Shown here: positions 41,542-64,000 of the stretch, piece after piece
Position numbering within the stretch: position 1 is the stretch's first letter
How the letters are laid out: each line of letters begins with the position of its first letter
Virus record (IMG/VR): IMGVR_UViG_3300024255_001771
Span: 1-64,000 of that record
Strand: one strand, 5' to 3'
Source of the DNA: a virus
DNA: 64,000 bases
Notes under the pieces: model-generated
The model's input: only the letters and a program-made list of their open reading frames with translations
The model's database searches: none
What the model was told of the DNA's origin: nothing
Made by a program: the position numbers and the translations under genes

Positions 41542-41564
41542 ATTATAATAACTTGGAGAGCCTT

Positions 41565-44210: not shown

Positions 44211-45129
44211 TAAATTTAAAGTTATTGATTATGATATAATCTATTTGTCTTATGACGAGCCTAACGCTGAAAAGAACTATGCGGACTTGTGTAGTAAGAT
44301 TCCTTGGGCTAAACGTGTACATGGAGTAAAAGGTAGTGACGCTGCACACAAAGCATGTGCAAAATTAAGTGAAACTGACAGATTTATTACAGTTGATGGT
44401 GACAATCAAATTAACCCAGAGTTCCTTGTACAAGAAATTGACTTTGACGCCCACGCCGATTTGGAACATAGTGTAATTAGTTGGTGCGGCAAAAATGTTA
44501 TTAATGGACTTATGTATGGTAATGGCGGACTAAAGTGTTGGCCAAAGCAGTATGTATTAGATATGAAAACACACGAAAATGCAGATCCAGATAATCCACA
44601 TGCACAAGTAGACTTTTGTTGGGACTTAAAGTATATACAACAAAATAGTTGTTACAGTTATGTATATAATAACGAAACACCACAACAAGCATGGCGTGCA
44701 GGATTTAGAGAAGGTGTTAAGATGGCACTAGATCAAGGTGTAAAGCCTACACAAGAACAATTTCTAAAAGGTCATTGGAAGAATTTGCATAGATTATGGA
44801 TTTGGTTAATGCTAGGTTCTGATGTACGAAACGGTGCTTGGGCTATATACGGTGCTAGAGAAGGGCTGTACCAAACAATGTGTACTGACTGGGATTATGT
44901 ACAAGTGCGTGACTTTGAATATCTAAACGCTATGTGGGAAGAAAAAGGTAAATTAGTACAAGAAGACATTGAGTATTATTCTACAGAACTCGGAACTAAA
45001 TTAATAAAAGAATTAAATATTCCTATTGCTGTTGAGCCCTTAGACGCTCAACAGAGCAAGTTCTTTAAGACGGTATACCAAAACCCAAGTAGAAACCCAA
45101 AGCAACAGTTTGTGATTGATCCTGAATGA
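44203..45129 (+). CDS. Glycosyltransferase-like protein (EPNA...VDGD family)
   Basis: A 308-residue protein with DYDIIYLSYDEPNAEKNY (about 9-26), RVHGVKGSDAAHKACAKL (about 38-55) and FITVDGDNQI (about 61-70), where DGD would act like the DxD of GT-A glycosyltransferases. The same order appears in the last third of the gene at 58027 (IVFISYNEPNADENW, RIHGVKGIHQAH, FFVVDGDATI), so these are paralogous domains within one operon. A second shared block is GAWAIYGAREGLY versus GEWAIKGARQGSAY. Soluble. Its substrate is unknown. Confidence 0.66.
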   Translation: MSNKFKVIDYDIIYLSYDEPNAEKNYADLCSKIPWAKRVHGVKGSDAAHKACAKLSETDRFITVDGDNQINPEFLVQEIDFDAHADLEHSVISWCGKNVINGLMYGNGGLKCWPKQYVLDMKTHENADPDNPHAQVDFCWDLKYIQQNSCYSYVYNNETPQQAWRAGFREGVKMALDQGVKPTQEQFLKGHWKNLHRLWIWLMLGSDVRNGAWAIYGAREGLYQTMCTDWDYVQVRDFEYLNAMWEEKGKLVQEDIEYYSTELGTKLIKELNIPIAVEPLDAQQSKFFKTVYQNPSRNPKQQFVIDPE

Positions 45130-46499
45130 GTAATGAAAAGCGCATCGAATTACTTGAGCAGAAACGGAAACAGATAAATTCTGTAAGTTGTAGTTTCTGT
45201 ACAGCTAAGTGGTTACAAACTACATTATACTTGCAAAACGGATATAATCATAGTTGTCACCATCCTGCTCCTCATAAGATACCTATTAGTGAAATAATGG
45301 GTAATCCACATGCACTGCACAATAGTAAACACAAAAAGAAACAGCGTGAAATGATGCTGAACGGAGAACGTCCAAAAGAGTGTGATTACTGTTGGAACAT
45401 AGAAGACTTAGATAAAAATTACTTTAGTGACAGACACTATAAGACAGCCGACTATTGGGCATGGGATAGATTTGATGAAATTGCAAAATCAAATCCTAAT
45501 GAAAATACATATCCAAGTTACTTAGAAGTAAGTTTTTCTAATGCATGTAACTTTGCATGTTCATACTGTTCACCTGAAATTAGCAGTAAGTGGATGGAAG
45601 ATATACAGCAAAATGGATCTTATCCTACAAAGCACGGATCACATGATCTAAGTTATCTCAAAAAGACACAAAAGTTTCCTTACCTTAACAGTGAAGTAAA
45701 TCCTTACGTTAAGGCTTTTTGGAAATGGTTTCCTGATGCGTTACCTCATTTAAAGGTGTTGCGTATTACTGGCGGCGAACCTACAATGAGTAAAGAAACA
45801 TGGAAACTTCTAGACATGCTAGTAGAAAATCCACAGCCTAATTTAGAAATAGCAATAAACACAAACTTGTGTGTTCCTGATAAACTAATAACAAAGTTGA
45901 TAGAGTCAATTAACAAACTAAAAGGTAAAGTCAAAAAAATAGATGTGTACACAAGTTTAGAAAGTATTGGTGAGCAAGCAGAATACTCGCGTGATGGGTT
46001 AGACTATGCACAATGGATAACAAACGTAGAACAAGTATTAGACCAAACTGACAGTTCAGTAGCAATGATGACAACTATAAACATATTAGCATTGCCAACA
46101 TTTGAGAAATTTATTAACGTGGTAATGGACTTTAGAAAAAAGTATAACAAAGCGTTTGAATATAATAGGATACCTCTAAGCATAAACATTATGCGGTGGC
46201 CACCGCATTTACAATGCACACTCTTAGATACTGAGGATAGAGAACTATATGCAAGTGCAATTGAATCTACCTGTGAAAGTTGGTTAAAGTATCATAGCCC
46301 AGATAAGTTTGCTAGACTTTATTTAGAAGAGTGGGATCAAATAAAAAGGTTCTGTGATTATTTACGTAATTCTGAGCCAGCTATTGAACATAGACAGGAT
46401 TTTGTAAGATACATACAAGCATACGATAAACGTAGAAGAAAAAACTTTAGGAAAGTGTTTCCTGAATATAGAGAAATATTAGAGGACTGGAATGCCTAA
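45126..46499 (+). CDS. Radical SAM protein with N-terminal twitch-type domain (copy A)
   Basis: A 457-residue radical SAM enzyme. The [4Fe-4S]-binding motif is C141-N-F-A-C145-S-Y-C148, followed by the SAM-contact strand RITGGEPTMS. The first ~95 residues hold further Cys: C22, C25, C44 and C86-x2-C89 in ECDYCW. That layout resembles the N-terminal 'twitch' domains that bind an extra iron-sulphur cluster. The family modifies substrates through a 5'-deoxyadenosyl radical; the substrate here is unknown. It is closely related to the next gene over most of its length (SCHHP, HNSKHKKKQRE, EYSRDGLDY), a tandem duplication. It overlaps both neighbours. Confidence 0.88.
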   Translation: MSNEKRIELLEQKRKQINSVSCSFCTAKWLQTTLYLQNGYNHSCHHPAPHKIPISEIMGNPHALHNSKHKKKQREMMLNGERPKECDYCWNIEDLDKNYFSDRHYKTADYWAWDRFDEIAKSNPNENTYPSYLEVSFSNACNFACSYCSPEISSKWMEDIQQNGSYPTKHGSHDLSYLKKTQKFPYLNSEVNPYVKAFWKWFPDALPHLKVLRITGGEPTMSKETWKLLDMLVENPQPNLEIAINTNLCVPDKLITKLIESINKLKGKVKKIDVYTSLESIGEQAEYSRDGLDYAQWITNVEQVLDQTDSSVAMMTTINILALPTFEKFINVVMDFRKKYNKAFEYNRIPLSINIMRWPPHLQCTLLDTEDRELYASAIESTCESWLKYHSPDKFARLYLEEWDQIKRFCDYLRNSEPAIEHRQDFVRYIQAYDKRRRKNFRKVFPEYREILEDWNA

Positions 46500-47937
46500 G
46501 AAACCCGACGAAAGTTTAACAGAGTATAGAGACAGAGTTATTAACGCTAAAAGTCCTAGCTTCTGTGGTGCTAAATGGTATAATGCAACTACATGGTTAG
46601 GTAGCGGCACTACTACAAGTTGTCATCACCCGCCAGCACACAAAATACCGCTTGAAGAAGTTGAAGCAGACTTTACTGCTATACACAACACAAAGCACAA
46701 AAAGGAAATGCGTAAGCAGATGCAAGTTGGACAACGACCTGCTGAATGTGAGTATTGTTGGAAAATGGAAGATATGAAAAAAGATGCTGTTAGTGACAGA
46801 GTCTTTAAAACTATTATCTATGATGACGACGAATTACAACGTGCATATGATATGAACTACACAGAAAATGTTCACCTCAAAACTTTTGAAATTGCGTTTG
46901 ACAGAACGTGTAACTTAGCATGTAGTTATTGTAATGCAAGTTTCTCAACCACATGGGCTAAAGATATTAAAAAGAATGGCGAGTACACAAACTTAGTAAG
47001 TGATGGTGCTGGTGCATTTAGACAAGACGGCAGTTGGACACAACCTTACAAAGATGATGACGATAATCCTTACATTCAAGCATTTTGGAAATGGTGGGAA
47101 AACGGACTTAGCAGTAGTTTAGAAGAACTACGCATTACAGGCGGCGAGCCTTTAATGAGCCATAACACTTGGAAATTGTTTGATTGGTTTGAAGCACAAA
47201 ATAGCAAGATGCGTTTTGCAATTAATAGTAATCTAATTGCTAAGAATGATATAATAGATAAACTTATACAAAAGTCGCATGGTATTAAGAACTTTGAAAT
47301 TTATACAAGTTGTGAAGCTGTAGGTGCTCAAGCAGAATATATACGTGACGGGCTAGTTTATGAACAATGGTTAAACAATGTAAAGCGTATATTGTCAGAA
47401 GCAAATGCAAATCTACATGTAATGATGACTATTAATAGTTTATGCTTGTTTAGTATTACAGATTTCTTAGATCAAATATATGAATTGAAAGAAACAACAG
47501 GAAGTAAATGGCCAAGTGTAAGTGTTAACCTTTTGAGATTTCCTAGCTTTCAGTCACCACTTGCTTTACCTAACCATATTAAAGATGAACTCCACAAAAA
47601 TTTATCTACTTGGTATGCAGCAAACAAAGACAAAGAATTATGGCACGAGTTTGAAAAGGCAAGTATTGAACGTTTGATAGATTACTTAGTTACAGTAGAT
47701 GCTCCGCATAGACGTACAAGTAACCCTGCTACGTTGTGGCGTGACTTTAAAACTTTCTATCAGCAATATGATGTACGTAGGAACAAAAGCCTAAGTGTAT
47801 TTCCTAAAATACTAACAGACTGGGTTGAAAGTATTCCAGACACTGATGCAAGTATTATGGAACTTGCAGAAAAAGAAGGTTGGATACTAAAACCAGATCC
47901 AAAAAATATTGATGAGCCTCTAGCAACATATGACTGA
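46492..47937 (+). CDS. Radical SAM protein with N-terminal twitch-type domain (copy B)
   Basis: A 481-residue paralogue of the preceding gene. Extra Cys are C25, C44 and C86-x2-C89 (ECEYCWKMED); the radical SAM motif is C140-N-L-A-C144-S-Y-C147, and ELRITGGEPLMS follows. Shared marks with copy A include SFC-x-AKW, SCHHPP, HNTKHKKEMRK, EYIRDGL and an ending with YDVRRNKSLSVFPK. Keeping both copies side by side suggests they act on different positions or form a heteromer. No membrane segment. Substrate unknown. Confidence 0.87.
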   Translation: MPKKPDESLTEYRDRVINAKSPSFCGAKWYNATTWLGSGTTTSCHHPPAHKIPLEEVEADFTAIHNTKHKKEMRKQMQVGQRPAECEYCWKMEDMKKDAVSDRVFKTIIYDDDELQRAYDMNYTENVHLKTFEIAFDRTCNLACSYCNASFSTTWAKDIKKNGEYTNLVSDGAGAFRQDGSWTQPYKDDDDNPYIQAFWKWWENGLSSSLEELRITGGEPLMSHNTWKLFDWFEAQNSKMRFAINSNLIAKNDIIDKLIQKSHGIKNFEIYTSCEAVGAQAEYIRDGLVYEQWLNNVKRILSEANANLHVMMTINSLCLFSITDFLDQIYELKETTGSKWPSVSVNLLRFPSFQSPLALPNHIKDELHKNLSTWYAANKDKELWHEFEKASIERLIDYLVTVDAPHRRTSNPATLWRDFKTFYQQYDVRRNKSLSVFPKILTDWVESIPDTDASIMELAEKEGWILKPDPKNIDEPLATYD

Positions 47938-49120
47938 CAACAAATGCATATCACCGTGGATACATTTACATACATGGCCTAACAACGATGTATATCCTTG
48001 TTGCTTAACAGCTATGGAAGATTCAGTTGGTAATTTAAATCAAAATACTCTTGCTGAAATTTGGAATGGCAATGATATGAAAAAGTTGCGTACACAGTTT
48101 CTTAACAATGAACAACCAGCAAGTTGTAAACGCTGCTTTATTAATGAGTCAAATGGCGGAACAAGTTTGCGTACACATATGAATGAAACTTTTTCGCATC
48201 ATATGGATTTATTACAAACAACAAATGCTGACGGAAGTTTAGATGATTTAAGTATACACTACTGGGACTTTAGATTTTCTAATATATGTAATATGCGTTG
48301 CAGAAGTTGCGGTCCACAGTTAAGTACAGGTTGGTACGAAGATCAAAAAAAGATGTGGGGTCAATTACCTAATGACTTACCTGACCCAGGTAAAAATATT
48401 AACATGTGGAATCAAATAGAACCGTTATTTGATAAAGTAGAAGATATTTATTTTGCTGGCGGCGAGCCATTACTAATGGAAGAACATTACCGTATCTTAA
48501 ATAAACTAGATGAAATGCAAAAGTACGATACTATCATTCGTTATAATACTAATCTTAGCCAGTTAAGATACAAAAAACTTGATGTTCTTGACATTTGGCC
48601 TAGATTTGATAACGTACATGTAGGAGCAAGTATAGATGGCTACGGCGCAAGAGCAGAATATATACGTAAAGGTACTGACTGGAATAAGATTGTTGCTAAT
48701 AGAAAAGCAATAATACAAAAAGCACCTGATATAAACTTTTTTGTTAACTTTACAGTTAGTGTACAAAATGCATTTCATATGACAGATTTCTACGAATGGG
48801 CATTAGAAGATAACTTTATAGGACACCCAAGAGACTTTCATATTAACATTGTCCATCATCCTGAGCATCTAAGTTTACAAATACTACCTGCAAGCATGAA
48901 AAAAGAATTAACTAAAAAATATATAGATATGGCAGAAAAGTGTAAGAGATGGGGCGAAGAAAGAGTTGAGCGTGGATTCTTATCAGTTGCAAAATTTATG
49001 AATGATGCAGATACATCTCATCTAATACCAGAGTTTAAGAAAAACATAGAAATGGTAGACATAATTAGGAATGAAAATTTTGCAGAAACATTTCCTGAAT
49101 TACAGGACTTGGTAAAATGA
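47930..49120 (+). CDS. Radical SAM protein with N-terminal twitch-type domain
   Basis: A 396-residue radical SAM enzyme of the twitch-first layout. N-terminal Cys are C6, C24-C25 (VYPCCLT) and C66-x2-C69 (ASCKRCF); the cluster motif is C120-N-M-R-C124-R-S-C127, then IYFAGGEPLLM. The N-terminal pattern P-W-x-H...P-C-C...G-N-L...I-W-N, with a last Cys pair, is the same logic as SPASM/twitch tails but placed before the core. It is closer to the gene at 49811 than to the two preceding genes. It overlaps an SGNH-like gene by 4 nt. Confidence 0.87.
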   Translation: MTDNKCISPWIHLHTWPNNDVYPCCLTAMEDSVGNLNQNTLAEIWNGNDMKKLRTQFLNNEQPASCKRCFINESNGGTSLRTHMNETFSHHMDLLQTTNADGSLDDLSIHYWDFRFSNICNMRCRSCGPQLSTGWYEDQKKMWGQLPNDLPDPGKNINMWNQIEPLFDKVEDIYFAGGEPLLMEEHYRILNKLDEMQKYDTIIRYNTNLSQLRYKKLDVLDIWPRFDNVHVGASIDGYGARAEYIRKGTDWNKIVANRKAIIQKAPDINFFVNFTVSVQNAFHMTDFYEWALEDNFIGHPRDFHINIVHHPEHLSLQILPASMKKELTKKYIDMAEKCKRWGEERVERGFLSVAKFMNDADTSHLIPEFKKNIEMVDIIRNENFAETFPELQDLVK

Positions 49121-49818
49121 TACTTACTATTGGATGCAGCTGGACGTTTGGTACTGGTGTAGAATCAAATGAAACTTTTTCGGCTTATCTACAAGACAAG
49201 TGCGGAACAACAGTTATAAATGGCGGACATGCCGGCATAGACAATGCGTATGCAGTATACTCAGCATATAGACTTTACCAAAAGTATAAACCAAAAGTTG
49301 TTTTGTTTCAGTTAACTACATTTGATAGAATGCAAATATCTATTAGTGGTAAGAAAAATTTTCTAGACAACCGATTTCATGACAATCTAGAACAACCAGT
49401 ATGGACACGAGAAGGCAAGCATACACGCCTTTGGGGAATAACAGAAGAAAAGACACACAAGATTACTGTAGGTGAATACTCTAATAGTTTAAGTAAGAAA
49501 AGTGATATTGACACTACTACAAAATTCTTATACGAAAATCATACATTTAGTACATTGGCTACCGAACAATTAATGTGTCAACTAGATATGCTTAAATCTT
49601 ATATAGAAAACTTTGGTGACAAGATTATATTCTTTCCGTGGGTACCAACGCCTATAGATGTAGAAAAAGTACTACCAGTACCGGTACATCAAGATAGTGT
49701 ACACAACTTTTTAGATAATAATCATTACATTGACAATGGTTATCATATATCACCTCAAGGACACAAACTTGTAGCAGACGAATATATATACCCTATGGTT
49801 AGGAGCGCAATTGAGTGA
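49117..49818 (+). CDS. SGNH/GDSL-type hydrolase-like protein
   Basis: A 233-residue protein with the SGNH plan: LTIGCSWTFG with candidate nucleophile S8, a second block INGGHAGIDN (about 34-43), and a C-terminal block DNGYHISPQGHKLVAD (D206, H210). Such enzymes are esterases, acetyl- or acyl-hydrolases, often acting on glycans or lipids. It sits between two radical SAM genes and overlaps both, which ties it to the same pathway. A second SGNH-like gene lies at 53768. No signal peptide is seen, so it probably works in the cytoplasm. An acetyltransferase-like reaction is also possible. Confidence 0.73.
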   Translation: MILTIGCSWTFGTGVESNETFSAYLQDKCGTTVINGGHAGIDNAYAVYSAYRLYQKYKPKVVLFQLTTFDRMQISISGKKNFLDNRFHDNLEQPVWTREGKHTRLWGITEEKTHKITVGEYSNSLSKKSDIDTTTKFLYENHTFSTLATEQLMCQLDMLKSYIENFGDKIIFFPWVPTPIDVEKVLPVPVHQDSVHNFLDNNHYIDNGYHISPQGHKLVADEYIYPMVRSAIE

Positions 49819-50926
49819 TATTTGTATAAATCCTTGGATACATATTGAAGCTGATGCAGTAGGCAATGCAAAGCCTTGTTGCTTATATGAAGGACCAGCT
49901 GTAGGACACTTTGGCACAGACGGTCTAAGCAAAATCTGGTCTAGTGAAGAAATGAAAACATTGCGCAAAGATTTCTTAGCAGGAAAGAAACCTGCTGGTT
50001 GTAACCAATGTTGGAAAAACGAATCGCAGGGTATACGTAGTAAACGTCAAGCAGATAATGAACGCTTTGAACATATGTTTCATAGGATTGGAAAACTAGG
50101 TCCGCCTATCTATTATGATCTAAAGCTAGGAACAGTGTGTAATTTAAAGTGCAGAATATGTAGCAGCTTTAGCAGTTTCAAATGGGCCGAAGATGAAAAA
50201 TTATTATACGGAGAAGTTCTTAATCCTAACCTTAAAAGTTACTGGATAGAAGATAATAGTCCTATTTGGCGTGACCTTGAAAGAGTAATTGAGTATATTG
50301 AATGGCTAGATTTCACAGGCGGTGAACCTTTATTAATTAAGAAACATTTTGAATTATTAGAAAAGTGTGTAGAAAGAGGTCATGCACATAAAATTAGTTT
50401 ACACTATAATACTAATACTACAATAAAGCCCACACAAAAAATGTTAGATCTTTGGAAAGAATTTAAATGGGTTGAACTTATGTTTAGTATTGACGGCACA
50501 GGCAAACAGTTTGAATACCAACGTCATCCAGCAGTTTGGAAAGAAGCTGAAAGTAATCTGCGTTTTGCAAATGAACAACCGTTCTTGCACACAAGTATTT
50601 GCCACACTGTAAATATTTTTAATATATTATATTTGCCAGAATTTCAACAATGGTTTAACACACTTGGTCTTCCTGAAGACCGGTTGTTCTTAAACGCACT
50701 ACATGGGCCTAAGCACTATAATGTGCAAGCAATACCTCAACATGCACATCAAGTAATTAAAGATAAACTTGGCAATGATAAATTCAAACCATTTGCAGAT
50801 CAAATGTCTAATTGCAACGGAGCAATTGATAGTTTCTTTAAATATACGCATATATTAGATAAACACAGGGAAGAAAATTTTGCACAAGTATTTCCTGAAC
50901 TAAACACACTATTATTAGGAGAGTAA
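49811..50926 (+). CDS. Radical SAM protein with N-terminal twitch-type domain
   Basis: A 371-residue enzyme starting at a TTG (49811) with AGGAG 5 nt upstream; no suitable ATG lies nearby. N-terminal Cys are C5, C23-C24 (AKPCCLY) and C64-x2-C67 (GCNQCW); the radical SAM motif is C110-N-L-K-C114-R-I-C117, followed by LDFTGGEPLLI. Near the end ENFAQVFPELN matches ENFAETFPELQ of the gene at 47930, so these two are paralogues with an SGNH-like gene between them. Substrate unknown. Confidence 0.86.
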   Translation: MSDICINPWIHIEADAVGNAKPCCLYEGPAVGHFGTDGLSKIWSSEEMKTLRKDFLAGKKPAGCNQCWKNESQGIRSKRQADNERFEHMFHRIGKLGPPIYYDLKLGTVCNLKCRICSSFSSFKWAEDEKLLYGEVLNPNLKSYWIEDNSPIWRDLERVIEYIEWLDFTGGEPLLIKKHFELLEKCVERGHAHKISLHYNTNTTIKPTQKMLDLWKEFKWVELMFSIDGTGKQFEYQRHPAVWKEAESNLRFANEQPFLHTSICHTVNIFNILYLPEFQQWFNTLGLPEDRLFLNALHGPKHYNVQAIPQHAHQVIKDKLGNDKFKPFADQMSNCNGAIDSFFKYTHILDKHREENFAQVFPELNTLLLGE

Positions 50927-50927
50927 T

Positions 50928-51974
50928 ATGTCTACTCAAGGTAAAGATTTCTTTGATAAAGATTGGTTTGATGACCACGTTGTAATATTATTTGAAGCAC
51001 CAATGGAGACATTACGTTGGTGGCTAAAGTTTGACGAAGATAGATTACATGATTGGCTGTTAGAAAATCCGCATGGTGATAAGAGTATTGCAAAAAGTGT
51101 AGTTGAAGATTTTTCAGTTAAAGCATTAATTACACCAATGGGCGGTGAAAACATAGTTGTACATCATTTTGAAAAAATACTTTGGTTAGTACAAAGCTAT
51201 TGTCAGACCGGATGGAAGAATAGTGTCAAGGCAGTAAATCATATGGACGATGGAACATATATGGTTCATCCCGGAACCAATAGGTGTGTAGCAGCAAAGT
51301 TTCTTAATTGTAAGACAATGCCTTTAATGCTTACTGTACATAAAGAACAAAATGCATTTAAAGAACTACGTGATAAAGGTGTTGTAATAACTGATGAAGA
51401 AACATTGCGCAAAAGTTTACTGAGTAGCGATACAATATTGTTTAGAACAGAAGTTGAGGAACGTTTATTTGTTAACAGTGTAGATACTGGTAAAACAACC
51501 AAAGACTTTACATACGAATTTTTAGGTTCTGACGCTTGGCCCGAAAAACTTATGCCAACAAACTTTGAAGGCTTTACACAAATTAAATTAGATCAATGGA
51601 GTGATTTAGTGTTTAGAAGTTTGCCTATGGTAGTAAACAATCCAACTGACTGCAAAGTGCATACGGACATGTTAAACTTTAAATTCTTTGATCGTACTAA
51701 AGGGCTATTTAATAAATTTGATTTACTACAATGCAACTTACCAATGGAAGAATTGCCAAGCAAGTGTGCGTATAGTGGTATTAGTATACATATAGAAAAA
51801 GAATTCTTAGGTGATATATTTGAACTATTATTATTTGTTGACCCGCAAAAGTGTGTAACACATACAAAAGACAAAAGTATTGTGATTATAAACAACGAGC
51901 ATCCTGCAAATCGAAAAGGAATTGATTGGAGTAATAAACTTATTATTCCTGATAGTTATGTCTCAAAATTTTAA
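50928..51974 (+). CDS. Unrecognised protein with a ParB-like HPGTNR motif
   Basis: A 348-residue soluble protein. Residues about 109-123 read TYMVHPGTNRCVAAK, which resembles the GxHR/GTNR turn of ParB/sulfiredoxin-type domains, where a phosphate or nucleotide is bound. The remaining parts (FEAPMETLRWWLKFDED near the start; CVTHTKDKSIVIINNEHPAN near the end) are unfamiliar. It sits inside the radical SAM cluster, 1 nt after one radical SAM gene and overlapping the next by 17 nt. The resemblance is short and could be chance; a nucleotide- or kinase-like activity is only a possibility. Confidence 0.6.
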   Translation: MSTQGKDFFDKDWFDDHVVILFEAPMETLRWWLKFDEDRLHDWLLENPHGDKSIAKSVVEDFSVKALITPMGGENIVVHHFEKILWLVQSYCQTGWKNSVKAVNHMDDGTYMVHPGTNRCVAAKFLNCKTMPLMLTVHKEQNAFKELRDKGVVITDEETLRKSLLSSDTILFRTEVEERLFVNSVDTGKTTKDFTYEFLGSDAWPEKLMPTNFEGFTQIKLDQWSDLVFRSLPMVVNNPTDCKVHTDMLNFKFFDRTKGLFNKFDLLQCNLPMEELPSKCAYSGISIHIEKEFLGDIFELLLFVDPQKCVTHTKDKSIVIINNEHPANRKGIDWSNKLIIPDSYVSKF

Positions 51975-56875: not shown

Positions 56876-58008
56876 TGAATATAGCATTTATTGGGTTAGG
56901 GAAACTTGGACTGCCTTGTGCAGAAGTTATTGCAGAAAAAGGACACAATGTAACTGGATATGATATTGCTAAACGGGGCAATAGTAATGTAGCACAGTTC
57001 CCTACAATCCAAAGTGCAATTAATGGTGCTGATATTGTATTTGTTGCTGTACCAACACCTCATGATCCAGATTACGATGGCAGAGCACCAACAGCACATC
57101 TAGAGCCAAAAGATTTTCAATACGACATTGTTAAAGAAGTAATTGCTGAAGCAAACAAGCATATGACAAAAGATCAATTACTTGTATTAATAAGCACAGT
57201 GTTACCTGGCACAGTGCGTAGAGAGTTTATACCGCTAGTAACTAACACACGCTTTGTATACAATCCTTATTTGATTGCTATGGGAACAGTTGCTTGGGAT
57301 ATGGTTAATCCTGAAATGGTAATGATAGGTACAGAAGATGGTACCGAAACAGGTGATGCAAAACAACTTGTTGATTTTTATAAATCTATAATGGAAAATG
57401 ATCCTCGCTACGTTATTGGTACTTGGGACGAATGTGAATGCATCAAAGTATTCTACAATACCTTTATTAGCACAAAAATTGGACTAGTAAATATGGTACA
57501 AGATGTTGCACAAAAGCAAGGCAACATTAATGTTGATGTTGTGACAGGAGCATTACGTGATAGTACACAGCGTATTATGGGGCCAAGCTATATGAAAGCA
57601 GGAATGGGCGATGGAGGCGCATGTCATCCAAGAGATAATATAGCTTTGCGCTACATGGCAGATAAACTAAATCTAGGCTACGACATATTCGATAGTGTAA
57701 TGAACGCTAGAGAAATACAAGCAAAAAATATGGCTATTGAAATATTAAAGTACGGAAACAAAATACAGTTTAGTAGCGATAGTTACAAACCTGATGTTGA
57801 ATATGTAGACGGTAGTTATAGTTTACTTGTACAACACTATGTAAGAAAACTAGGCGGTTGGGTAGTAAATGAAACTCCTAGTGTTGTTGTTAGAGTACAT
57901 GAAAATGATAAGTTACCAGAAGGTAACTATATTGTATTTGATCCGTGGCGCAGTTACGAAGGATCAAATCAACATGTTTCTTACGGAAATACTAGACATA
58001 TGAAATGA
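56875..58008 (+). CDS. UDP-glucose/GDP-mannose dehydrogenase family protein
   Basis: A 377-residue NAD-dependent nucleotide-sugar 6-dehydrogenase-like protein. It has a Rossmann motif GLGKLG at 7-12, ADIVFVAVPTPHDPD (about 52-66), LISTVLPGT (105-113), a middle helix CIKVFYNTFISTKIGLVN (with K191 and N195) and the catalytic Cys in GGAC250HPRD. This family oxidises UDP-glucose, GDP-mannose or relatives to the uronic acid. The Cys context is G-G-A-C-H-P-R-D instead of the common G-x-x-C-F-P-K-D, and the usual C-terminal domain is shortened. It lies just downstream of three transferase-like genes, so it may feed them with a donor. Which sugar cannot be read from the sequence. Confidence 0.84.
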   Translation: MNIAFIGLGKLGLPCAEVIAEKGHNVTGYDIAKRGNSNVAQFPTIQSAINGADIVFVAVPTPHDPDYDGRAPTAHLEPKDFQYDIVKEVIAEANKHMTKDQLLVLISTVLPGTVRREFIPLVTNTRFVYNPYLIAMGTVAWDMVNPEMVMIGTEDGTETGDAKQLVDFYKSIMENDPRYVIGTWDECECIKVFYNTFISTKIGLVNMVQDVAQKQGNINVDVVTGALRDSTQRIMGPSYMKAGMGDGGACHPRDNIALRYMADKLNLGYDIFDSVMNAREIQAKNMAIEILKYGNKIQFSSDSYKPDVEYVDGSYSLLVQHYVRKLGGWVVNETPSVVVRVHENDKLPEGNYIVFDPWRSYEGSNQHVSYGNTRHMK

Positions 58009-58021
58009 TCTGTGTTATAAT
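57993..58021 (+). promoter_or_regulatory. Internal host-type sigma-70 promoter
   Basis: TAGACA (57993-57998; one mismatch to TTGACA), a 17-nt spacer, then TATAAT (58016-58021). It lies at the end of the dehydrogenase gene in the only sizeable gap of the operon. The next ATG (58027) is just 5 nt after the -10 box, so its transcript would be nearly leaderless. Confidence 0.65.
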
Positions 58022-58026
58022 AAGAT

Positions 58027-59664
58027 ATGTATGATATATTCTATCAACTAAATGACAAAAATGCAGAACAGTATGAAACACTTAAATCTAAATTTCCTAC
58101 TGTAAAAAAGTGCGACGGCTTTAAACAAGCACAAAAAAGAGCCTTTACCAAATTCTTTTGGTACATACCTAGTGACGTAATAGTACTTGACGATTTTGAT
58201 TTTGACTATGTACCTGATGCATGGAGTAATGAATACGTTCATCTTTTTAAAAACGGCGAACATTACGATGGTATTAACTTATTTCCAAAGCGTTTAGAAA
58301 TAAGAGAAAAGGAACTACAGCATAGATTTTTTGTAAACAAAAAAGAAGTTGACATACAAATAAGTGTACCCAAGCAGTACGATTTTTTCTATGTAGACAC
58401 ATTTGAAGAATACGAACGTGCATTTGAACAAACTACTACAGAACTATTTTGGGTAGTAAGCAGAAACTTGACAATTGATCCTAACTTTGATCTTGGATTT
58501 TACTTTAGTCATCATAACAGTTATGATAGGCGAGAAAATCATGCGTTTGTGCATAGTGTTGAAGGCAAAGAATTATATAATGGAGTCTTCCTATGTTCAA
58601 TACATAAGCAGCTTAACAAAAAGCAAGTAGATTACAAGTTTATTGTAAACAGAAAAGAGTGGGAAATAACAGCAAGTGGACCTTGCGAATACGAAAAGTT
58701 TGAAGTTGTTACATATGTAGACTATCTCAAAGCACTAAAGATGAGCAAGACAGAAATGTTTTGGATGGTACCTGAAAGAGTACAAGTTGAAAAGGCATTC
58801 AAATTTGATATGTATTTTTCACATGATAACGAATACGACAGAACAATAAATCACGTGTTCTTAAATGGAGATCACTTTGATGGCATTGTGTTATGCAGTA
58901 AACATAATCCTATTACACAAAAAGAGTTTGACTATAGATTTGTGTCTCAGCGCAAAGAACATGCAACAGTAGCAAGTTATCCTAAAGTTAAAGATTATGA
59001 TATTGTGTTTATAAGTTATAATGAACCTAATGCTGATGAAAACTGGGAAAACTTGAAAGAACGTTTTCCAAGAGCGCAACGTATACACGGAGTCAAAGGC
59101 ATACATCAAGCACACATTGAAGCAGCTAAATTGTGTACTACTGACTTATTTTTTGTTGTAGATGGCGATGCTACGATAGTAGATAGTTTTGATTTCCGTT
59201 ATAAAGGACAAGAAGGCTTTGTACATGTATGGCGTAGTATAAATCCTATAAACGATCTAGTATACGGATACGGCGGCGTAAAGCTATTGCCAAGAGAGCT
59301 TACGCTTAACATGGATACTAGCAAGCCTGATATGACAACTAGTATATCAGAAAAGTTTAAAGCAATGCCAGATATTAGTTGTATAACTAATTTTAATACA
59401 GATCCGTTTAGCACTTGGAAAGGTGCATTTAGAGAATGTTGTAAACTTTCTAGTAAAGTAATTGATAGGCAAAAGAATGAAGAAACAGATGACCGTTTAC
59501 TTACCTGGACGACAGTAGGGAAAGAGCGCCCTTACGGCGAATGGGCTATCAAAGGTGCTAGACAAGGATCTGCTTACGGAACAGCAAGCCAAGGCGATAG
59601 TGAAGCACTTAAAAAAATAAATGACTTTGATTGGCTTCAGGAGAAGTTTAATGAAAACACATGA
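58027..59664 (+). CDS. Multidomain protein: three internal repeats plus glycosyltransferase-like domain
   Basis: A 545-residue protein. Three related units come first: residues about 43-108 (FFWYIPSDVIV...RFFVNKKEV), about 139-212 (LFWVVSRNLTI...YKFIVNRKEW) and about 243-311 (MFWMVPERVQV...YRFVSQRKEH). Each has F-W at its start, a HxF/NHxF middle and a [RK]F-V-x2-[RK]KE end. From about 319 a GT-A-like domain follows (IVFISYNEPNADENW, RIHGVKGIHQAH, FFVVDGDATI), paralogous to the gene at 44203. The repeats may bind a glycan or another protein; I do not know the family. No ribosome site is visible before the ATG. Confidence 0.68.
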   Translation: MYDIFYQLNDKNAEQYETLKSKFPTVKKCDGFKQAQKRAFTKFFWYIPSDVIVLDDFDFDYVPDAWSNEYVHLFKNGEHYDGINLFPKRLEIREKELQHRFFVNKKEVDIQISVPKQYDFFYVDTFEEYERAFEQTTTELFWVVSRNLTIDPNFDLGFYFSHHNSYDRRENHAFVHSVEGKELYNGVFLCSIHKQLNKKQVDYKFIVNRKEWEITASGPCEYEKFEVVTYVDYLKALKMSKTEMFWMVPERVQVEKAFKFDMYFSHDNEYDRTINHVFLNGDHFDGIVLCSKHNPITQKEFDYRFVSQRKEHATVASYPKVKDYDIVFISYNEPNADENWENLKERFPRAQRIHGVKGIHQAHIEAAKLCTTDLFFVVDGDATIVDSFDFRYKGQEGFVHVWRSINPINDLVYGYGGVKLLPRELTLNMDTSKPDMTTSISEKFKAMPDISCITNFNTDPFSTWKGAFRECCKLSSKVIDRQKNEETDDRLLTWTTVGKERPYGEWAIKGARQGSAYGTASQGDSEALKKINDFDWLQEKFNENT

Positions 59665-60565
59665 GTTATTAGATAGGTTTGAACTACTGTATCCTACTAA
59701 CAGCAAATTAGCAGATCTACGTAGAGCATATATTGACCAAGACATTAGCAGTATATTTAGACTAATGCCTAATCATGTATCTGGAGACATTGAAGAACTT
59801 CGTAAAGCAGTGCTAGAACAAAATTTGCATAGTATCTTTAGATTGTGTAACAACGATGATTTAAGGAAACTTGTACTAGAAGACAATACATGGAAACTTT
59901 GGCCCATACTAGATTGTTACGCTGACACTCAATTTATAGCAGCATTCAAAAGTTTTTTTGTTAATGAAACAAATATTTGGGACGATTGTTTTTCTAGAGG
60001 ACAACTAGAAAGTAAATTATGGTTAGTAAAAGAACTTAGAAAACTTAAGGTTGACTTAGGCACAGTATTCTTGTGTGCAGGTTGGTACGCTACACTAGCT
60101 ACAATGTTATTTGAGAGTAACATTAAAGTAGATAAAGTTAGATCTTTCGACATTGATCCTAGCTGTGTAGATATTGCTGAAGTATTTAACAAGCCTTGGT
60201 TTGTAGATCAATGGCGATTTAAAAGTATTACACAAGATATAATGGATATTGATTATAATGAGCATACATGGCAGTATTGGAGTAACGCAAACAATAGAAT
60301 GAGCTATCCAATTACAGATAGTCCTAATACTATTATAAACACAAGTTGCGAACACATAGAAAACTTTTCAGAATGGTATGATCTAATACCAAACGATAAA
60401 TTAGTAGTTCTACAAAGTAATAATTATTATGAAGTAGAAGAACATGTTAATTGTGTTAAAGACATCAAAGAGTTTGGCAACATGGCACGTATGACAGGTC
60501 CGTTATATGCAGGTGAACTAGAACTGCCCAAGTACAAGAGGTTTATGTTAATTGGATATAAATGA
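59651..60565 (+). CDS. Class I SAM-dependent methyltransferase-like protein
   Basis: A 304-residue protein. I chose ATG 59651, preceded by GGAG with 7-nt spacing, over a TTG 30 nt upstream. The N-terminal ~110 residues are helical, with repeat-like DISSIFRLMP and NLHSIFRLCN. A Rossmann-type methyltransferase core begins near 138: TVFLCAGWYATLA as motif I and RSFDIDPSCVDIAE with the acidic residue that binds the SAM ribose. NTIINTSCEHIENF and DKLVVLQSNNYYE are later strands. Target unknown; small molecule, sugar or protein are all possible. It overlaps both neighbours by 14 nt. Confidence 0.7.
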   Translation: MKTHELLDRFELLYPTNSKLADLRRAYIDQDISSIFRLMPNHVSGDIEELRKAVLEQNLHSIFRLCNNDDLRKLVLEDNTWKLWPILDCYADTQFIAAFKSFFVNETNIWDDCFSRGQLESKLWLVKELRKLKVDLGTVFLCAGWYATLATMLFESNIKVDKVRSFDIDPSCVDIAEVFNKPWFVDQWRFKSITQDIMDIDYNEHTWQYWSNANNRMSYPITDSPNTIINTSCEHIENFSEWYDLIPNDKLVVLQSNNYYEVEEHVNCVKDIKEFGNMARMTGPLYAGELELPKYKRFMLIGYK

Positions 60566-60776
60566 ACTAAGTGTAAGAGAACTGCAAACAGAGAGTGCTA
60601 GGGCATTGAGTACAATGCAAGCAACCAATAATAATATTTGGCAGTTCAATAAAGTAGCACATCATAACAGTCAAAACTGGTACAAGGCTGTAATCGAATG
60701 GTATGTTGAACAGTACGGCAACCTGCCTAGTAAAGTTGGTCCTGGTAAAGATGTAAAGTTGATAATGGATGTATAG
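60552..60776 (+). CDS. Small helical protein upstream of a radical SAM gene
   Basis: A 74-residue protein starting at a TTG (60552) with AGAGG about 9 nt upstream. It is predicted mainly helical: ELSVRELQTESARALSTMQA, then WQFNKVAHHNSQNWYKAVIE and a Gly/Lys-rich end GPGKDVKLIMDV. It overlaps the methyltransferase by 14 nt and the radical SAM gene by 8 nt. Its size and place invite a comparison with a RiPP precursor, but there is no leader/core split and no Cys or repeated core, so I do not call it one. Function unknown. Confidence 0.6.
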   Translation: MDINELSVRELQTESARALSTMQATNNNIWQFNKVAHHNSQNWYKAVIEWYVEQYGNLPSKVGPGKDVKLIMDV

Positions 60777-61836
60777 ATACGAAGATATAAAAACAATACA
60801 CCTTGAGGTTACACAAAACTGCCAAGCCAATTGTCCAATGTGTGACCGTAATATGAACGGCGAAGGATTAAATCCGCACATTAATTTAGATGAACTATCA
60901 TTAGACGATTGCAAAAATATTTTTACAAAAGAATTTATTGCACAATTAGATACAATGTATATGTGTGGCAACTTGGGAGATCCTATCGTTGCTAAAGACA
61001 CATTAGAAATATTTCAATATTTTAGATTACACAATCCTAATATGTGGCTAAGTATGAATACAAACGCAGGGGCAAAAAATGAAAAGTGGTGGAGACAGCT
61101 GGCTGAAGTTTTTGGAAGGATGGGCTCCGTCATATTTAGTGTGGACGGTTTGCGTGACACTAATCATTTATATCGCCAAGGAGTTGTATGGGATAACGTA
61201 GAACGCAACATGCGAGCATTTATTGACGCAGGCGGCAGGGCACGTTGGGACTTTCTAATTTTTGAACACAATCAGCATCAAGTAGATGAAGCGGAAGCAC
61301 TTGCTAACGAATGGGGCTGCGAAAAGTTTATGAAGAAAAAGACTGGACGCTTTATTACACAAGATTCAAAAAAGAAAGAATCTCATCAAGCAGTTGATAA
61401 AAAAGGTAATAAAACTTCTAAACTTAAAAAACCAGATGCAAAATATCAAAACAAAGCAATTAGCAAGCAAGAAGTAATTATTAACAAGTACGGCACTATG
61501 GACGCTTACTATGATGCAGCCCCTATCATTTGTAAAGTAAAGAAAGATAATAGCTTATTCATAACAGCAGAGGGCCTAGCGTTACCTTGTTGTTGGACTG
61601 CTGGCCGAATGTATAAATGGTGGCACAAAGATCCTAAAGTAGAACAAATATGGGACTTTATACCTGATATAAGCGCCTTACAAGCACGGAACGGTTTAGA
61701 AGCAGTGTTTGCTACGGGAATATTTGAACGCATACAAGACAGCTGGACAAAGTCTAGTTGCGGTGACGGCAAGTTAAAAGTGTGTGCAATGAAATGCGGC
61801 GCAGAGTTTGATCCGTTTGCAGAACAATTTAAATAA
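60769..61836 (+). CDS. Radical SAM protein, GDP-motif subfamily
   Basis: A 355-residue radical SAM enzyme with C18-Q-A-N-C22-P-M-C25 close to the N-terminus. The strand that usually reads GGEP is CGNLGDP here. A characteristic FSVDGLRDTNHLYRQGVVW (about 124-142) is shared with the genes at 62472 and 63518. The C-terminal third has further Cys: IICKV, ALPCCWTAGR, SSCGDGKLKVCAMKCG, consistent with a SPASM-like auxiliary cluster region. A Lys-rich loop (about 197-230) precedes it. It converges with the nitroreductase-like gene with an 8-nt overlap of the coding ends. Confidence 0.84.
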   Translation: MYRYEDIKTIHLEVTQNCQANCPMCDRNMNGEGLNPHINLDELSLDDCKNIFTKEFIAQLDTMYMCGNLGDPIVAKDTLEIFQYFRLHNPNMWLSMNTNAGAKNEKWWRQLAEVFGRMGSVIFSVDGLRDTNHLYRQGVVWDNVERNMRAFIDAGGRARWDFLIFEHNQHQVDEAEALANEWGCEKFMKKKTGRFITQDSKKKESHQAVDKKGNKTSKLKKPDAKYQNKAISKQEVIINKYGTMDAYYDAAPIICKVKKDNSLFITAEGLALPCCWTAGRMYKWWHKDPKVEQIWDFIPDISALQARNGLEAVFATGIFERIQDSWTKSSCGDGKLKVCAMKCGAEFDPFAEQFK

Positions 61837-62437: not shown

Positions 62438-62442
62438 ACAAA

Positions 62443-62449
62443 TATTTAT
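62443..62449 (-). promoter_or_regulatory. Possible late promoter motif ATAAATA before the nitroreductase-like gene
   Basis: On the minus strand GATAAATA ends 5 nt before the ATG at 62437. The sequence fits the late motif, but the closeness would place the transcription start at the ATG itself. In AT-rich DNA a chance match is quite possible. Confidence 0.4.
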
Positions 62450-62471
62450 CTTAGAACAAATAAGTACAGTT

Positions 62472-63521
62472 ATGCTTACAATTAATGATGTTAAAAAAAT
62501 TGAACTAGAAATTACCAGCGATTGCAATGCAGCCTGTCCAGGCTGTGCTAGAACAATTCATAATGATTTGCTGAGAATAAACAGTTTTTCACTGCAAGAT
62601 CTGCAGAGAATATTTCCTACTACTAATCATATAGCAGATAAAGAATTTAAATTTTGTGGTGTATTAGGCGATCCAGCAATACATCCTCAGCTTGCTGATA
62701 TGTTAGAATACGTATTACAACATGGCGGGAAAGCAAACATTAGTACAAACGGTGCTGTAGGTACAGCAGACATGTGGCGTAGAATAGGCAAACTAGCAAA
62801 CCAGTATCATCAAAAGTTTTTCATGCAATGGTGTATTGATGGTCATAAAGAAACAAATCATATTTATAGAGTAAACACTAAATGGAGTGTTCTTGAAAGA
62901 AATATAAATGCATTTTGTGAAACAGTTGGAGAATATACTCACAAAGCACAATGGGTCTTTATTGTTTTTGATCATAACGAATACGAACTTGATATAGCAA
63001 AACAACATGCTAAACGTTTAGGATTTAAATTTGCTACTCGCACAGGAATGCGTAACAGTTATCATCAATGGATATCTCATATTGGTAAGAAAAACAATAA
63101 AGAAACAAAAGTAATTACTACTACAGGCAAGAACGAACATAAACGTAAAGATGAAGTTTACAAGTTAGATAAACTAATTGCTAATAACGAAGTTGACAAT
63201 AGTATCATTAATACAATTTCATGTAAGTATGTACACGAAGGTGAAATGTTTATTAATGCACAACAACAAATGTGGCCGTGTTGTTTTTTATGGGATAGCG
63301 CATTTAAAGATATAGACAATATGTCAGAAAAACTTAGTGATTATCCTGACAGCTGGAATAGTTTAAAAACACAATCTATAGAAGAAGTTATGCAACAACC
63401 TTACTATATGAATGTACTTGAGGAAAGCTGGAACCCTAAACACAATAAACATATAGAGCGTTGTATAAGAACATGCGCATACAATAAAGCATATCAAAAC
63501 GAAATAGTAGAACAAAAATGA
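62472..63521 (+). CDS. Radical SAM protein, GDP-motif subfamily
   Basis: A 349-residue enzyme with C18-N-A-A-C22-P-G-C25 and CGVLGDP at the usual GGEP place. WCIDGHKETNHIYRVNTKW (about 117-135) is the shared subfamily block. Late Cys in ISCKYVHEG, MWPCCFLWD and CIRTCAYN suggest an auxiliary cluster. The start lacks a clear ribosome site. It is divergent to the nitroreductase-like gene with 34 nt between them and overlaps the next radical SAM gene by 4 nt (ATGA). It is paralogous to the gene at 60769. Confidence 0.84.
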   Translation: MLTINDVKKIELEITSDCNAACPGCARTIHNDLLRINSFSLQDLQRIFPTTNHIADKEFKFCGVLGDPAIHPQLADMLEYVLQHGGKANISTNGAVGTADMWRRIGKLANQYHQKFFMQWCIDGHKETNHIYRVNTKWSVLERNINAFCETVGEYTHKAQWVFIVFDHNEYELDIAKQHAKRLGFKFATRTGMRNSYHQWISHIGKKNNKETKVITTTGKNEHKRKDEVYKLDKLIANNEVDNSIINTISCKYVHEGEMFINAQQQMWPCCFLWDSAFKDIDNMSEKLSDYPDSWNSLKTQSIEEVMQQPYYMNVLEESWNPKHNKHIERCIRTCAYNKAYQNEIVEQK

Positions 63522-64000
63522 GTTGGAAAATTTTAGTTAAAGATCAAGTTAAGGTTCAAATTGAAATGTCTAACTATTGTAATGCTGCTTGTCCGGCTTG
63601 TGCAAGGTCAAAGGTTCGTAAGAATATCAAAGATGAGATGTATCCTATTACATTAAATGATACGTACATAAGTTTAGAACAATTTAAAAGTTGGTTTGAT
63701 AAAGATACTTGGTCAAGTTTAACACATATACATATGTGCGGTAACTACGACGAGGCAACAACTAATCCTGATCTAATTGAAATTGTAAAGTGGATTCTAT
63801 CTAGTGATGATCTATTTCCTATGAAACCTAAGATTTCTATTGCTACTAACGGCGGTACACGCACTAAAGAATTTTGGAAAGAGCTAGGACAAATGTCTGC
63901 CGAATCCGGCAATCGCCTTAATGTAACATGGGGCCTTGATGGGTTTGAAGACACTAATCATCTTTATAGGATAAATGTTGTTTGGAATAGAGTACAAGAA
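63518..64000 (+). CDS. Radical SAM protein, GDP-motif subfamily, cut by window edge
   Basis: The first 161 residues of a radical SAM protein; the gene runs past the end of the window. It has C21-N-A-A-C25-P-A-C28 and the subfamily block LDGFEDTNHLYRINVVW near the end. The GGEP-equivalent site reads MCGNYDEATTNPDL, more divergent than in the two preceding genes. The ATG overlaps the upstream stop (ATGA), showing translational coupling. Confidence 0.83.
   Translation, partial: MSWKILVKDQVKVQIEMSNYCNAACPACARSKVRKNIKDEMYPITLNDTYISLEQFKSWFDKDTWSSLTHIHMCGNYDEATTNPDLIEIVKWILSSDDLFPMKPKISIATNGGTRTKEFWKELGQMSAESGNRLNVTWGLDGFEDTNHLYRINVVWNRVQE

Follow-up and report, generated by a model that had tools for sequence, protein, structure and literature searches.

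A radical SAM gene island behind the tail operon of a probable giant T4-like phage, with a conserved core and a likely role in a glycan or glycoconjugate pathway

Introduction

Several phage gene sets that resemble the one described here are on record, each cited in this text from part of the publication concerned. The T4-like marine genome TARA_ERS488813_N000010 carries 12 radical S-adenosylmethionine (SAM) genes (Nishimura et al., 2017; PMC5332604), the hypervariable host-recognition cluster of pelagimyophages combines tail fibres near VrlC with radical SAM cassettes and with glycosyltransferases that were read as O-chain modifiers (Zaragoza-Solas et al., 2020; PMC7029224), and the polymorphic, glycan-type polysaccharide-modification clusters of jumbo phages and cyanophages have epimerases, kinases and glycosyltransferases named among their genes (Iyer et al., 2021; PMC7824862). 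Radical SAM genes are also mentioned among viral auxiliary genes elsewhere (PMC7150976; PMC9301287). The subject of the present analysis is a radical SAM gene island in a virus of seawater-type samples, IMG/VR record IMGVR_UViG_3300024255_001771, of which the first 64,000 of 78,931 bases form the window, that is, the whole stretch of DNA analysed. The island combines a core of fixed gene order with exchangeable cassettes, and probably encodes a glycan or glycoconjugate pathway.

Results

Radical SAM genes and the conserved core

Within 31.7 kb of the record (45126-76819) there are 15 matches to the radical SAM family PF04055 (E ≤ 0.001), all in open frames without internal stops, and the CX3CX2C motif is present in all 15 genes. 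The PF04055 cut-off is passed by 12 of them, with RS2, RS3 and RS7 falling below it (genes are named as in the list below). An earlier note, made from the letters of the window, had counted eight radical SAM genes with a visible CX3CX2C motif; all eight match PF04055 in uninterrupted frames and each contains the motif, the eighth (start 63518) being cut by the window end and terminating at record position 64519, but the count was too modest, the set being about twice as large. In a longer relative of 137,746 bases (G001), which matches the record at 99-100% identity in its island proteins, a sixteenth radical SAM gene lies about 4.6 kb past the fifteenth, adjoined by a gene for a TctA-type tricarboxylate transporter permease (L170:157-1449).

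For comparison of the island between phages, 30 records were selected from 160 loci, mainly on longer contigs, in which RS6 or the sugar dehydrogenase has a relative, and 24 phages were fetched from these (G004-G007 and G014 were omitted as near-copies by score, G022 for its single match). Radical SAM matches occur in all 30 records, at 1-19 per record and 15-19 in the densest, although this is not a prevalence because the records were picked for a relative of one of those two genes. Searches of the 24 phages with 38 island genes (tblastn), together with gene maps, delineate a frame of g4a-g4b-g4c, GT1, h8, MT1, h10, RS6, RS9 and RS13, in which an RS1-like gene usually sits between GT1 and h8. 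The earlier note had raised the possibility of unrelated insertions with no conserved co-occurrence. In fact, the order g4c, GT1, h8, MT1, h10, RS6, RS9, RS13 is kept on one strand in 16 of the 19 phages with at least five of these eight anchors (anchors under the identity thresholds were not counted), and the RS6/RS9/RS13 trio is shared by bacteria of predatory type, as described below; G021, G027 and G028 deviate from the order, and 5 of the 24 phages hold too few anchors. The slots between anchors hold 0-18 genes of at least 140 residues, 0-9 of them radical SAM genes, and vary by phage (13 phages). Only the core is fixed, and most of the radical SAM genes are exchangeable cassettes.

Within this core, RS6 is 76-86% identical in 14 of the other fetched phages, and h10 shows 68-86% identity in most of the relatives possessing it. 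A scan with h10 yielded 80 loci, 73 of which have an RS6 match within the fetched flank (63 at ≥70% identity; any tblastn match at E ≤ 1e-4 was accepted, such that paralogues may count), with a junction offset of -5, an overlap, in 46 loci. Among the seven h10 loci without RS6, four end 1 to 1,423 bases past h10, and three have no RS6 in 3,000 bases.

Also significant is the retention of the cluster-binding residues, whose loss in most copies the earlier note had named as evidence against its proposal. The CX3CX2C motif is found in 255 of 258 radical SAM homologues of the 24 phage islands, and in 87 of 12,680 residue shuffles of homologues that served as a chance control. Among phage proteins picked by BLAST hit and coverage, blind to the twitch cysteines and to CX3CX2C, those of N-terminal-twitch type (N-type) contain the motif in 383 of 383 cases and four N-terminal auxiliary cysteines in 367 of 383, while the C-terminal type (C-type) has both the motif and the C-terminal auxiliary cysteines in 207 of 207. 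In proteins picked in the same way from loci of bacterial metagenome-assembled genomes (MAGs), the four auxiliary cysteines precede the radical SAM domain in 25 of 25 N-type proteins, and the C-terminal auxiliary set is present in 19 of 19 C-type proteins. The 98 rows of alignment A7 were picked by a regular expression for the cysteine pattern, and its invariant cysteines stem partly from that selection. The ratio of non-synonymous to synonymous substitution rates (dN/dS) stays under 0.2 in 37 of the 40 comparisons made in five phage pairs (the others being 0.26, 0.35 and 0.41); the island genes are under purifying selection. Random insertion or decay was rejected as an explanation, gene order, motif retention and dN/dS all being contrary to it.

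The features of the window, and the radical SAM genes beyond it, are the following.

39320..40249 (+): FLP-1, fibre-like tail protein (FLP), 309 residues, at the end of the baseplate/tail operon; no Pfam match
40290..41501 (+): FLP-2, fibre-like tail protein, 403 residues, directly upstream of the island
41553..41915 (+): g4a, conserved 120-residue protein, in 16 of the 24 fetched relatives; no Pfam match
41908..42765 (+): g4b, candidate GT8-like (glycogenin-like) glycosyltransferase by profile match, with DxD; no Pfam match
42737..43600 (+): g4c, candidate GT8-like glycosyltransferase, same profile as g4b; no Pfam match
44203..45129 (+): GT1, putative GT-A-fold transferase by model; no Pfam match
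45126..46499 (+): RS1, N-terminal-twitch radical SAM protein; PF04055, NF033640
46492..47937 (+): RS2, N-terminal-twitch radical SAM protein; NF033640, below the Pfam cut-off
47930..49120 (+): RS3, N-terminal-twitch radical SAM protein; NF033640 and model, below the Pfam cut-off
49117..49818 (+): SGNH1, SGNH-like by a motif read by eye; no Pfam or PHROG match
49811..50926 (+): RS4, N-terminal-twitch radical SAM protein; PF04055, NF033640
50928..51974 (+): 348-residue protein, ParB-like by eye only; no Pfam or PHROG match
51958..52815 (+): RS5, radical SAM protein with C-terminal SPASM domain; PF04055 (31.6 bits) and PF13186 (54.1 bits), both over the cut-off
52797..53777 (+): h3, glycosyltransferase-like by eye only, aligning with h5 and h6; no Pfam or PDB-sequence match
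53768..54580 (+): SGNH2, SGNH-like by a motif read by eye; no Pfam match
54577..55896 (+): h5, aligning with h3 and h6 at 25-29% identity (alignment A6)
55886..56875 (+): h6, aligning with h3 and h5 (alignment A6)
56875..58008 (+): UDP-glucose/GDP-mannose dehydrogenase; PF03721 (72.6 bits) and PF00984 (59.1 bits), over the cut-off
58027..59664 (+): h8, C-terminal GT1-like domain after N-terminal repeats (by eye), GT1 homology; no Pfam or PHROG match
59621..60565 (+): MT1, core gene and conserved anchor, methyltransferase-like by eye; no family match
60552..60776 (+): h10, conserved 74-residue protein overlapping the start of RS6; 80 loci in a scan with it
60769..61836 (+): RS6, core radical SAM protein with C-terminal twitch; PF04055
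61829..62527 (-): nitroreductase-family protein; PF00881 over the cut-off
62472..63521 (+): RS7, radical SAM protein with C-terminal twitch by its cysteine pattern; below the Pfam cut-off
63518..64000, continuing to record position 64519 (+): RS8, radical SAM protein with C-terminal twitch; PF04055
Record 64509-76819, beyond the window: RS9-RS15; PF04055

The groups proposed in the earlier note (at least three, namely twitch-first, SPASM-type and GDP-motif) do exist, and four architectures are distinguished here. In the usual SPASM order the radical SAM domain comes first and the auxiliary-cluster domain follows. The N-terminal twitch class (RS1, RS2, RS3, RS4, RS9, RS11) shows the opposite arrangement, with the auxiliary-cluster domain before the radical SAM domain, and among the matches listed for the NF033640 subfamily (cut-off 170 bits) are RS1 (330.9), RS2 (304), RS3 (409.8), RS4 (351.5) and RS9 (425). 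The C-terminal twitch/SPASM class comprises RS5, RS6, RS7, RS8 and RS12, of which only RS5 and RS12 match Pfam SPASM over the cut-off and RS6, RS7, RS8 and RS12 contain the GDP motif (CG..GDP or a variant). RS10 and RS13 have a different set of C-terminal cysteines, and RS14 and RS15 are B12 radical SAM proteins with the B12-binding domain PF02310 over the cut-off in both; RS14 scores 187 bits against the KedN5-type B12 radical SAM methyltransferase family NF033712, under its cut-off of 700. An AlphaFold2 model of RS3 (predicted local distance difference test, pLDDT, 95.8; predicted template modelling score, pTM, 0.92) has a radical SAM fold, the radical SAM domain of which matches the cytosylglucuronate decarboxylase BlsE with a Z score of 13.3. 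The fold cannot tell a sugar enzyme from a peptide enzyme, because the matches to anSME, SuiB, viperin, CteB, MoaA, SkfB, DesII and BlsE lie within about 1.2 Z units of one another.

A counterpart in Bdellovibrionota

A scan of a species-genome collection with RS9 returned 17 loci, 12 of them in MAGs whose titles read Bdellovibrionales, Bdellovibrionia or Bacteriovoracaceae; identity is 52-62% in 11 of these and 30% in one, and their contigs reach 936 kb. In the bacterial loci RS6 (orthologues 45-48% identical), RS9 and RS13 again form a group, to which MT1 and GT1/h8 often belong, with orders and orientations that differ from those of the phages. Across 143 genomes of the class to which the Bdellovibrionia MAG G052 belongs, RS9 is found in 13, RS6 in 15 (including one partial match, in G056 at 343 bits, counted as present) and RS13 in 15; all three occur in 13 genomes and any of them in 16 (pairwise Fisher p ~1e-16, uncorrected for ancestry). 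RS13 was also found in 16 of 240 genomes, an even draw from the phylum to which G047 belongs that overlaps the set of 143.

The N-terminal twitch type is abundant on both sides. Eleven bacterial genomes (G047-G054, G056, G058, G059) have 10-37 matches each at E ≤ 0.001, of which 4-19 per genome pass the cut-off, and the phage records have 5-17 each (13 in the record of the window, at least five of them over the cut-off), while 14 control genomes yield matches at E ≤ 0.001 and none over the cut-off. Dense bacterial arrays of such genes span about 30 kb, as at G049:C1:745513-774880.

In trees of the RS6, RS9 and RS13 rows above identity and coverage thresholds, the RS13 proteins of 15 main-lineage phages and the phage-like locus L391 form one clade (100/100), and the 19 RS9 proteins of 16 phages and three phage-like contigs group in a clade (100/98) that falls among bacterial rows when the tree is rooted at its midpoint. 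One ancient exchange between phage and bacterium would account for this most simply, in a direction that depends on where the root is placed. The loci L382, L391 and L394 look like phage contigs in mis-sorted bacterial bins and are treated as such, because L382 (genome G046) and L391 (G055), filed as bacterial-MAG loci, carry h10, and T4-type major head matches are present in G055 (Gammaproteobacteria MED685, four rows) and in G057, the genome of L394 (Chloroflexi NAT137, one row). The T4-type head gene was not found in 21 other bacterial genomes, including G046, nor in virus record G019.

The neighbours of the trio in nine bacterial genomes (109 proteins, excluding G314, proteins of fewer than 140 residues, proteins divided between slices and any at a distance above 10 kb) have Glycos_transf_2 as their commonest Pfam family, with 7 members (best 25 of 158 families), and also include Polysacc_synt_2, Epimerase, RmlD, Bac_transf and UDP-GlcNAc 2-epimerase, beside many unrelated families. 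One locus, L389, sits in a region read by eye as polysaccharide synthesis.

Attachment to the tail operon

In the window, a 5,294-residue protein encoded by a single open reading frame of the tail region (17101-32985) is followed by tail genes, the two FLP genes and the island. An FLP homologue lies directly upstream of g4a in 14 of the 16 phages with g4a, the two misses being a slice end and a 239-residue gene. FLP-2 has weak PHROG matches to baseplate wedge and tail proteins. In phage PA5oct, which has a giant protein at the place equivalent to the 5,294-residue frame, a homologue of FLP-1 (27% identity) ends the baseplate run after the giant protein and a gp10-like protein, and its record note 'ESI-MS/MS' is read as detection by mass spectrometry.

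Sugar-related and other accompanying genes

The earlier note had listed transferases, SGNH-like hydrolases, a sugar dehydrogenase and a methyltransferase as companions of the radical SAM genes. The dehydrogenase is borne out, the transferase GT1 has a GT-A fold by model only, and the methyltransferase-like MT1 has no Pfam or PHROG match; the SGNH assignment rests on a motif read by eye, because neither window protein has a Pfam match. In the AlphaFold2 model of GT1 (pLDDT 92.8), residues 4-156 match GT-A enzymes (best match Z 10.1, 141 aligned residues, root-mean-square deviation 3.1), and D65 and D67 of the DxD motif are invariant in 67 sequences. This fold is also found in nucleotidyltransferases such as MobA, and GT1 is designated a GT-A-fold putative transferase. 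The g4b/g4c profile A11 matches glycogenin, a GT8 enzyme, over profile positions 6-110 (best E 2e-4), with the DxD motif present. Searches of PDB sequences with h3/h5/h6 and MT1 returned nothing useful.

The phage slots contain UDP-sugar dehydrogenase, CTP_transf_3 cytidylyltransferase, NAD epimerase and DegT/EryC1 aminotransferase families, as well as FkbM methyltransferase, 2-oxoglutarate (2OG) oxygenase and GDSL families, a nitroreductase-like family present in 10 phages, and an arginine-deiminase-like protein below the Pfam cut-off; each named family accounts for one of 59 slot representatives, except GDSL and DUF6071. Sugar-nucleotide enzymes are thus found both in the window (the sugar dehydrogenase) and in the slots of relatives (CTP_transf_3, Epimerase, DegT). 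The Pfam tally of the 59 representatives contained no flippase, polymerase, ligase or initiating-transferase family. Furthermore, a simple hydropathy count predicts two or more membrane segments for none of the 345 genes of at least 140 residues that lie between GT1 and RS13, compared with 29 of the 314 genes counted in bacterial slices (p 2e-10); on this ground the pathway looks cytosolic, without membrane machinery for polysaccharide export.

The phage lineage

The window contains baseplate, tail, SbcC-like and endolysin-like genes, and a tRNA search of it found none. On G001, a T4-type major head protein (phrog_138, 337 bits) and portal (phrog_213, 389 bits) are present. Vibrio phage 2.275.O (349 kb) has a head protein 71% identical to this one, and the head proteins of Phosso (469 kb), CBB, GAP32 and PA5oct share 67-69% identity with it. 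Judged by best capsid match rather than by a tree, the phage would belong to the giant T4-like clade; a Pelagibacter-phage identity was rejected, the best capsid matches being giant T4-like phages. The head gene and radical SAM genes occur together on two records of relatives, 236 and 257 kb in length. In a capsid-based survey of 15 of 80 loci, chosen among longer contigs with several short fragments included, radical SAM matches were found in 5 of the 15 records, at 0-4 each, and there were none in records of 98 and 133 kb; the dense island is therefore a trait of a sublineage. Away from the island, G001 also carries two adjacent tryptophan halogenase genes and a 2OG oxygenase gene (L222:7979-11180, about 128-131 kb).

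Among 50,697 phage records, RS6, RS9 and RS13 have no close relative (best 21-26% identity), and GT1 and g4b have no match at E ≤ 1e-5. The only cultured-phage match of RS6 is to pelagiphage Mosig, at 21.5% identity over half of the protein, which was a further ground for rejecting a Pelagibacter-phage identity.

Discussion

The conserved co-occurrence of the island genes in phages and in Bdellovibrionia, together with the retention of the residues that bind the clusters, supports the dedicated biosynthetic pathway suggested in the earlier note, and a glycan or glycoconjugate is the likely class of its product. In the mechanism envisaged, the GT8-like g4b and g4c and the GT-A-like GT1 and h8 would transfer sugars to an acceptor, RS6, RS9 and RS13 as the core trio, with MT1 and h10, would carry out a conserved modification of the sugar units or of an acceptor side chain, and the exchangeable cassettes, which differ between phages, would change the decoration from one phage to the next. 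These cassettes contain the other radical SAM genes, B12 radical SAM genes with oxygenase-like neighbours (by eye), the sugar dehydrogenase, nitroreductase, PP-loop and SGNH-like genes. The acceptor would most likely be the distal tail protein FLP encoded just upstream, and the virion would show a varied and chemically unusual glycan to hosts or rivals. A cytosolic, radical SAM-dominated island on the tail operon that tailors a glycan or glycoconjugate on the phage's own distal tail protein is put forward tentatively. It is possible, though more doubtful, that radical chemistry furnishes the tail proteins of the virion with chemically unusual, phage-specific glycans, the conserved three-enzyme core and its swappable cassettes thereby diversifying the receptor-facing surface post-translationally, and that uncultivated Bdellovibrionota employ this core for a surface glycan.

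Several observations weigh against a glycan pathway directed at the tail. The sequence and fold neighbours of the radical SAM proteins include the peptide-modifying CteB, anSME, SuiB and SkfB as well as the sugar-type BlsE and DesII, with inseparable Z scores. Pfam scans gave no match for GT1, g4b, g4c, h3, h5, h6, h8 or MT1, few of the 59 slot representatives match sugar-nucleotide families, and the membrane comparison was a hydropathy count. The bacterial co-occurrence may stem in part from shared ancestry. A tail acceptor cannot be the general rule, because, G314 apart, none of the nine bacterial genomes that were sliced showed an FLP gene next to the core. Counted in favour of the proposal is contig G314:C21 (slices L429 and L430), which has genes read by eye as pheT, trmD and rimM and, toward its end, RS9, h8 (on the opposite strand), RS13, FLP, g4a, g4b, g4c, GT1 and RS3-, RS4- and RS10-like genes; it could be chromosomal, an integrated piece of phage or a chimeric join near the contig end.

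The main rival places the glycan on the host: the island would remodel the surface glycan of the infected cell (lipopolysaccharide O-chain or capsule), excluding rival phages or keeping the cell alive. Such a role has been proposed for the sugar clusters of pelagimyophages and jumbo cyanophages (PMC7029224; PMC7824862), and the position behind a giant tail-region protein and tail genes resembles the published host-recognition cluster. The sugar-nucleotide enzymes of the slots, the polysaccharide-type neighbours of the core in some Bdellovibrionota, the polymorphism among relatives and the proximity in pelagiphage Mosig of a nitroreductase, molybdenum-cofactor-annotated genes and an aminotransferase of the 4-amino-4-deoxy-L-arabinose (L-Ara4N) type all fit this account. 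It is nevertheless rather unlikely, given that none of the island genes counted has two or more predicted membrane segments and that the host would have to supply flippase, polymerase, ligase and initiating transferase alike. SPASM and twitch enzymes of known substrate mostly act on peptides, and this, with CteB, SkfB, anSME and SuiB among the nearest structures, the tail genes adjoining the island and the presence of B12 radical SAM genes, would suit a reading in which radical chemistry acts directly on virion proteins or peptides (giving crosslinks, epimers or C-methylation) and sugars are secondary; the GT8-like, GT-A and sugar-nucleotide genes and the polysaccharide-type bacterial neighbours make this the less probable course.

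A ribosomally synthesised and post-translationally modified peptide system, in which h10 is the precursor matured by RS6, would account for a strongly conserved 74-residue protein that often overlaps RS6. However, h10 appears by eye to be conserved over its full length, unlike a leader with a variable core, the hydropathy count reveals no exporter-like membrane gene, and the Bdellovibrionota slices have no h10 match beside the trio, such that this reading is very improbable. Slightly better placed, though improbable as well, is a soluble secondary metabolite (a signal or toxin) instead of a modified polymer: the content is rich in tailoring genes (radical SAM, B12 radical SAM, nitroreductase, PP-loop), the halogenases of G001 lie elsewhere in the genome, and halogenated metabolites predicted in jumbo cyanophages offer a precedent (PMC7824862), but family scans recognised no scaffold-building enzyme, two pairs of glycosyltransferase type stand in the fixed frame, and the island is attached to the tail operon. 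Queuosine-like modification of phage DNA or host tRNA, to which QueC-like PP-loop proteins and weak QueE-like PHROG matches might point, is scarcely credible, since no other deazaguanine gene was recognised among the scanned island genes and 15 of the 24 fetched islands lack a match to the PP-loop gene.

Radical SAM enzymes depend on a reductase and on iron-sulphur clusters that are sensitive to oxygen. They are costly for a phage, and a lineage that keeps 15-19 intact radical SAM genes must therefore gain much from the product. Should tail proteins be the target of the pathway, phages would have a new means of varying host recognition; should host glycans be the target, superinfection exclusion would gain a new chemistry. 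Through the trio that these phages and Bdellovibrionota have in common, what was a list of auxiliary genes becomes a single pathway open to testing.

Comparison with known systems

Among the papers listed in searches of an open-access library, which does not cover bioRxiv or most subscription papers, none was seen to describe a conserved set of core radical SAM genes in phages, the arrangement of this set behind the tail operon, the trio in Bdellovibrionota or a glycan role for the core. The genome TARA_ERS488813_N000010 is similar in that a single T4-like marine phage carries numerous radical SAM genes; in the part of the report cited, these genes appear under Fe-S metabolism, and a core, gene order, tail link, bacterial counterpart or product class are not given (PMC5332604). 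The jumbo phage and cyanophage clusters share polymorphic, glycan-type content with the island, whereas the word 'radical' is absent from the main text of that paper (PMC7824862). The pelagimyophage cluster likewise brings tail fibres, glycosyltransferases and radical SAM cassettes together, but those phages infect SAR11, whereas the present phages have giant T4-like capsid matches and, in their densest records, 15-19 radical SAM matches.

Among cultured phages, Phosso has 4 radical SAM matches, Mosig 2, and 2.275.O and PA5oct none. In Mosig, positions 60958-64509 (L447) hold the nitroreductase, two molybdenum-cofactor-annotated genes (the second matching PF04055) and the L-Ara4N-type aminotransferase, a small cultured analogue. 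The large cultured Vibrio phages KVP40, QD01 and K566 have no match to RS6, RS13, GT1 or g4b. They do encode distant N-terminal-twitch homologues (about 21-23% identical to RS3), with 4-6 radical SAM matches per genome and a few of the genes close together. A QueC-like gene lies near the radical SAM genes in KVP40 and QD01; in these two phages (L441 and L444, respectively) a radical SAM pair adjoins the QueC-like gene and nicotinamide phosphoribosyltransferase-like genes. QD01, whose radical SAM genes include QD01_266, QD01_267 and QD01_278, can be grown on the laboratory strain Vibrio natriegens Vmax and could thus serve as a model.

A named protein group that covers part of the island is the curated NF033640 subfamily, the cut-off of which RS1, RS2, RS3, RS4 and RS9 pass. 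NF033640 is a subfamily name without a function, whereas the present phage multiplies its members within one genome, and many members of the subfamily thereby gain a common context.

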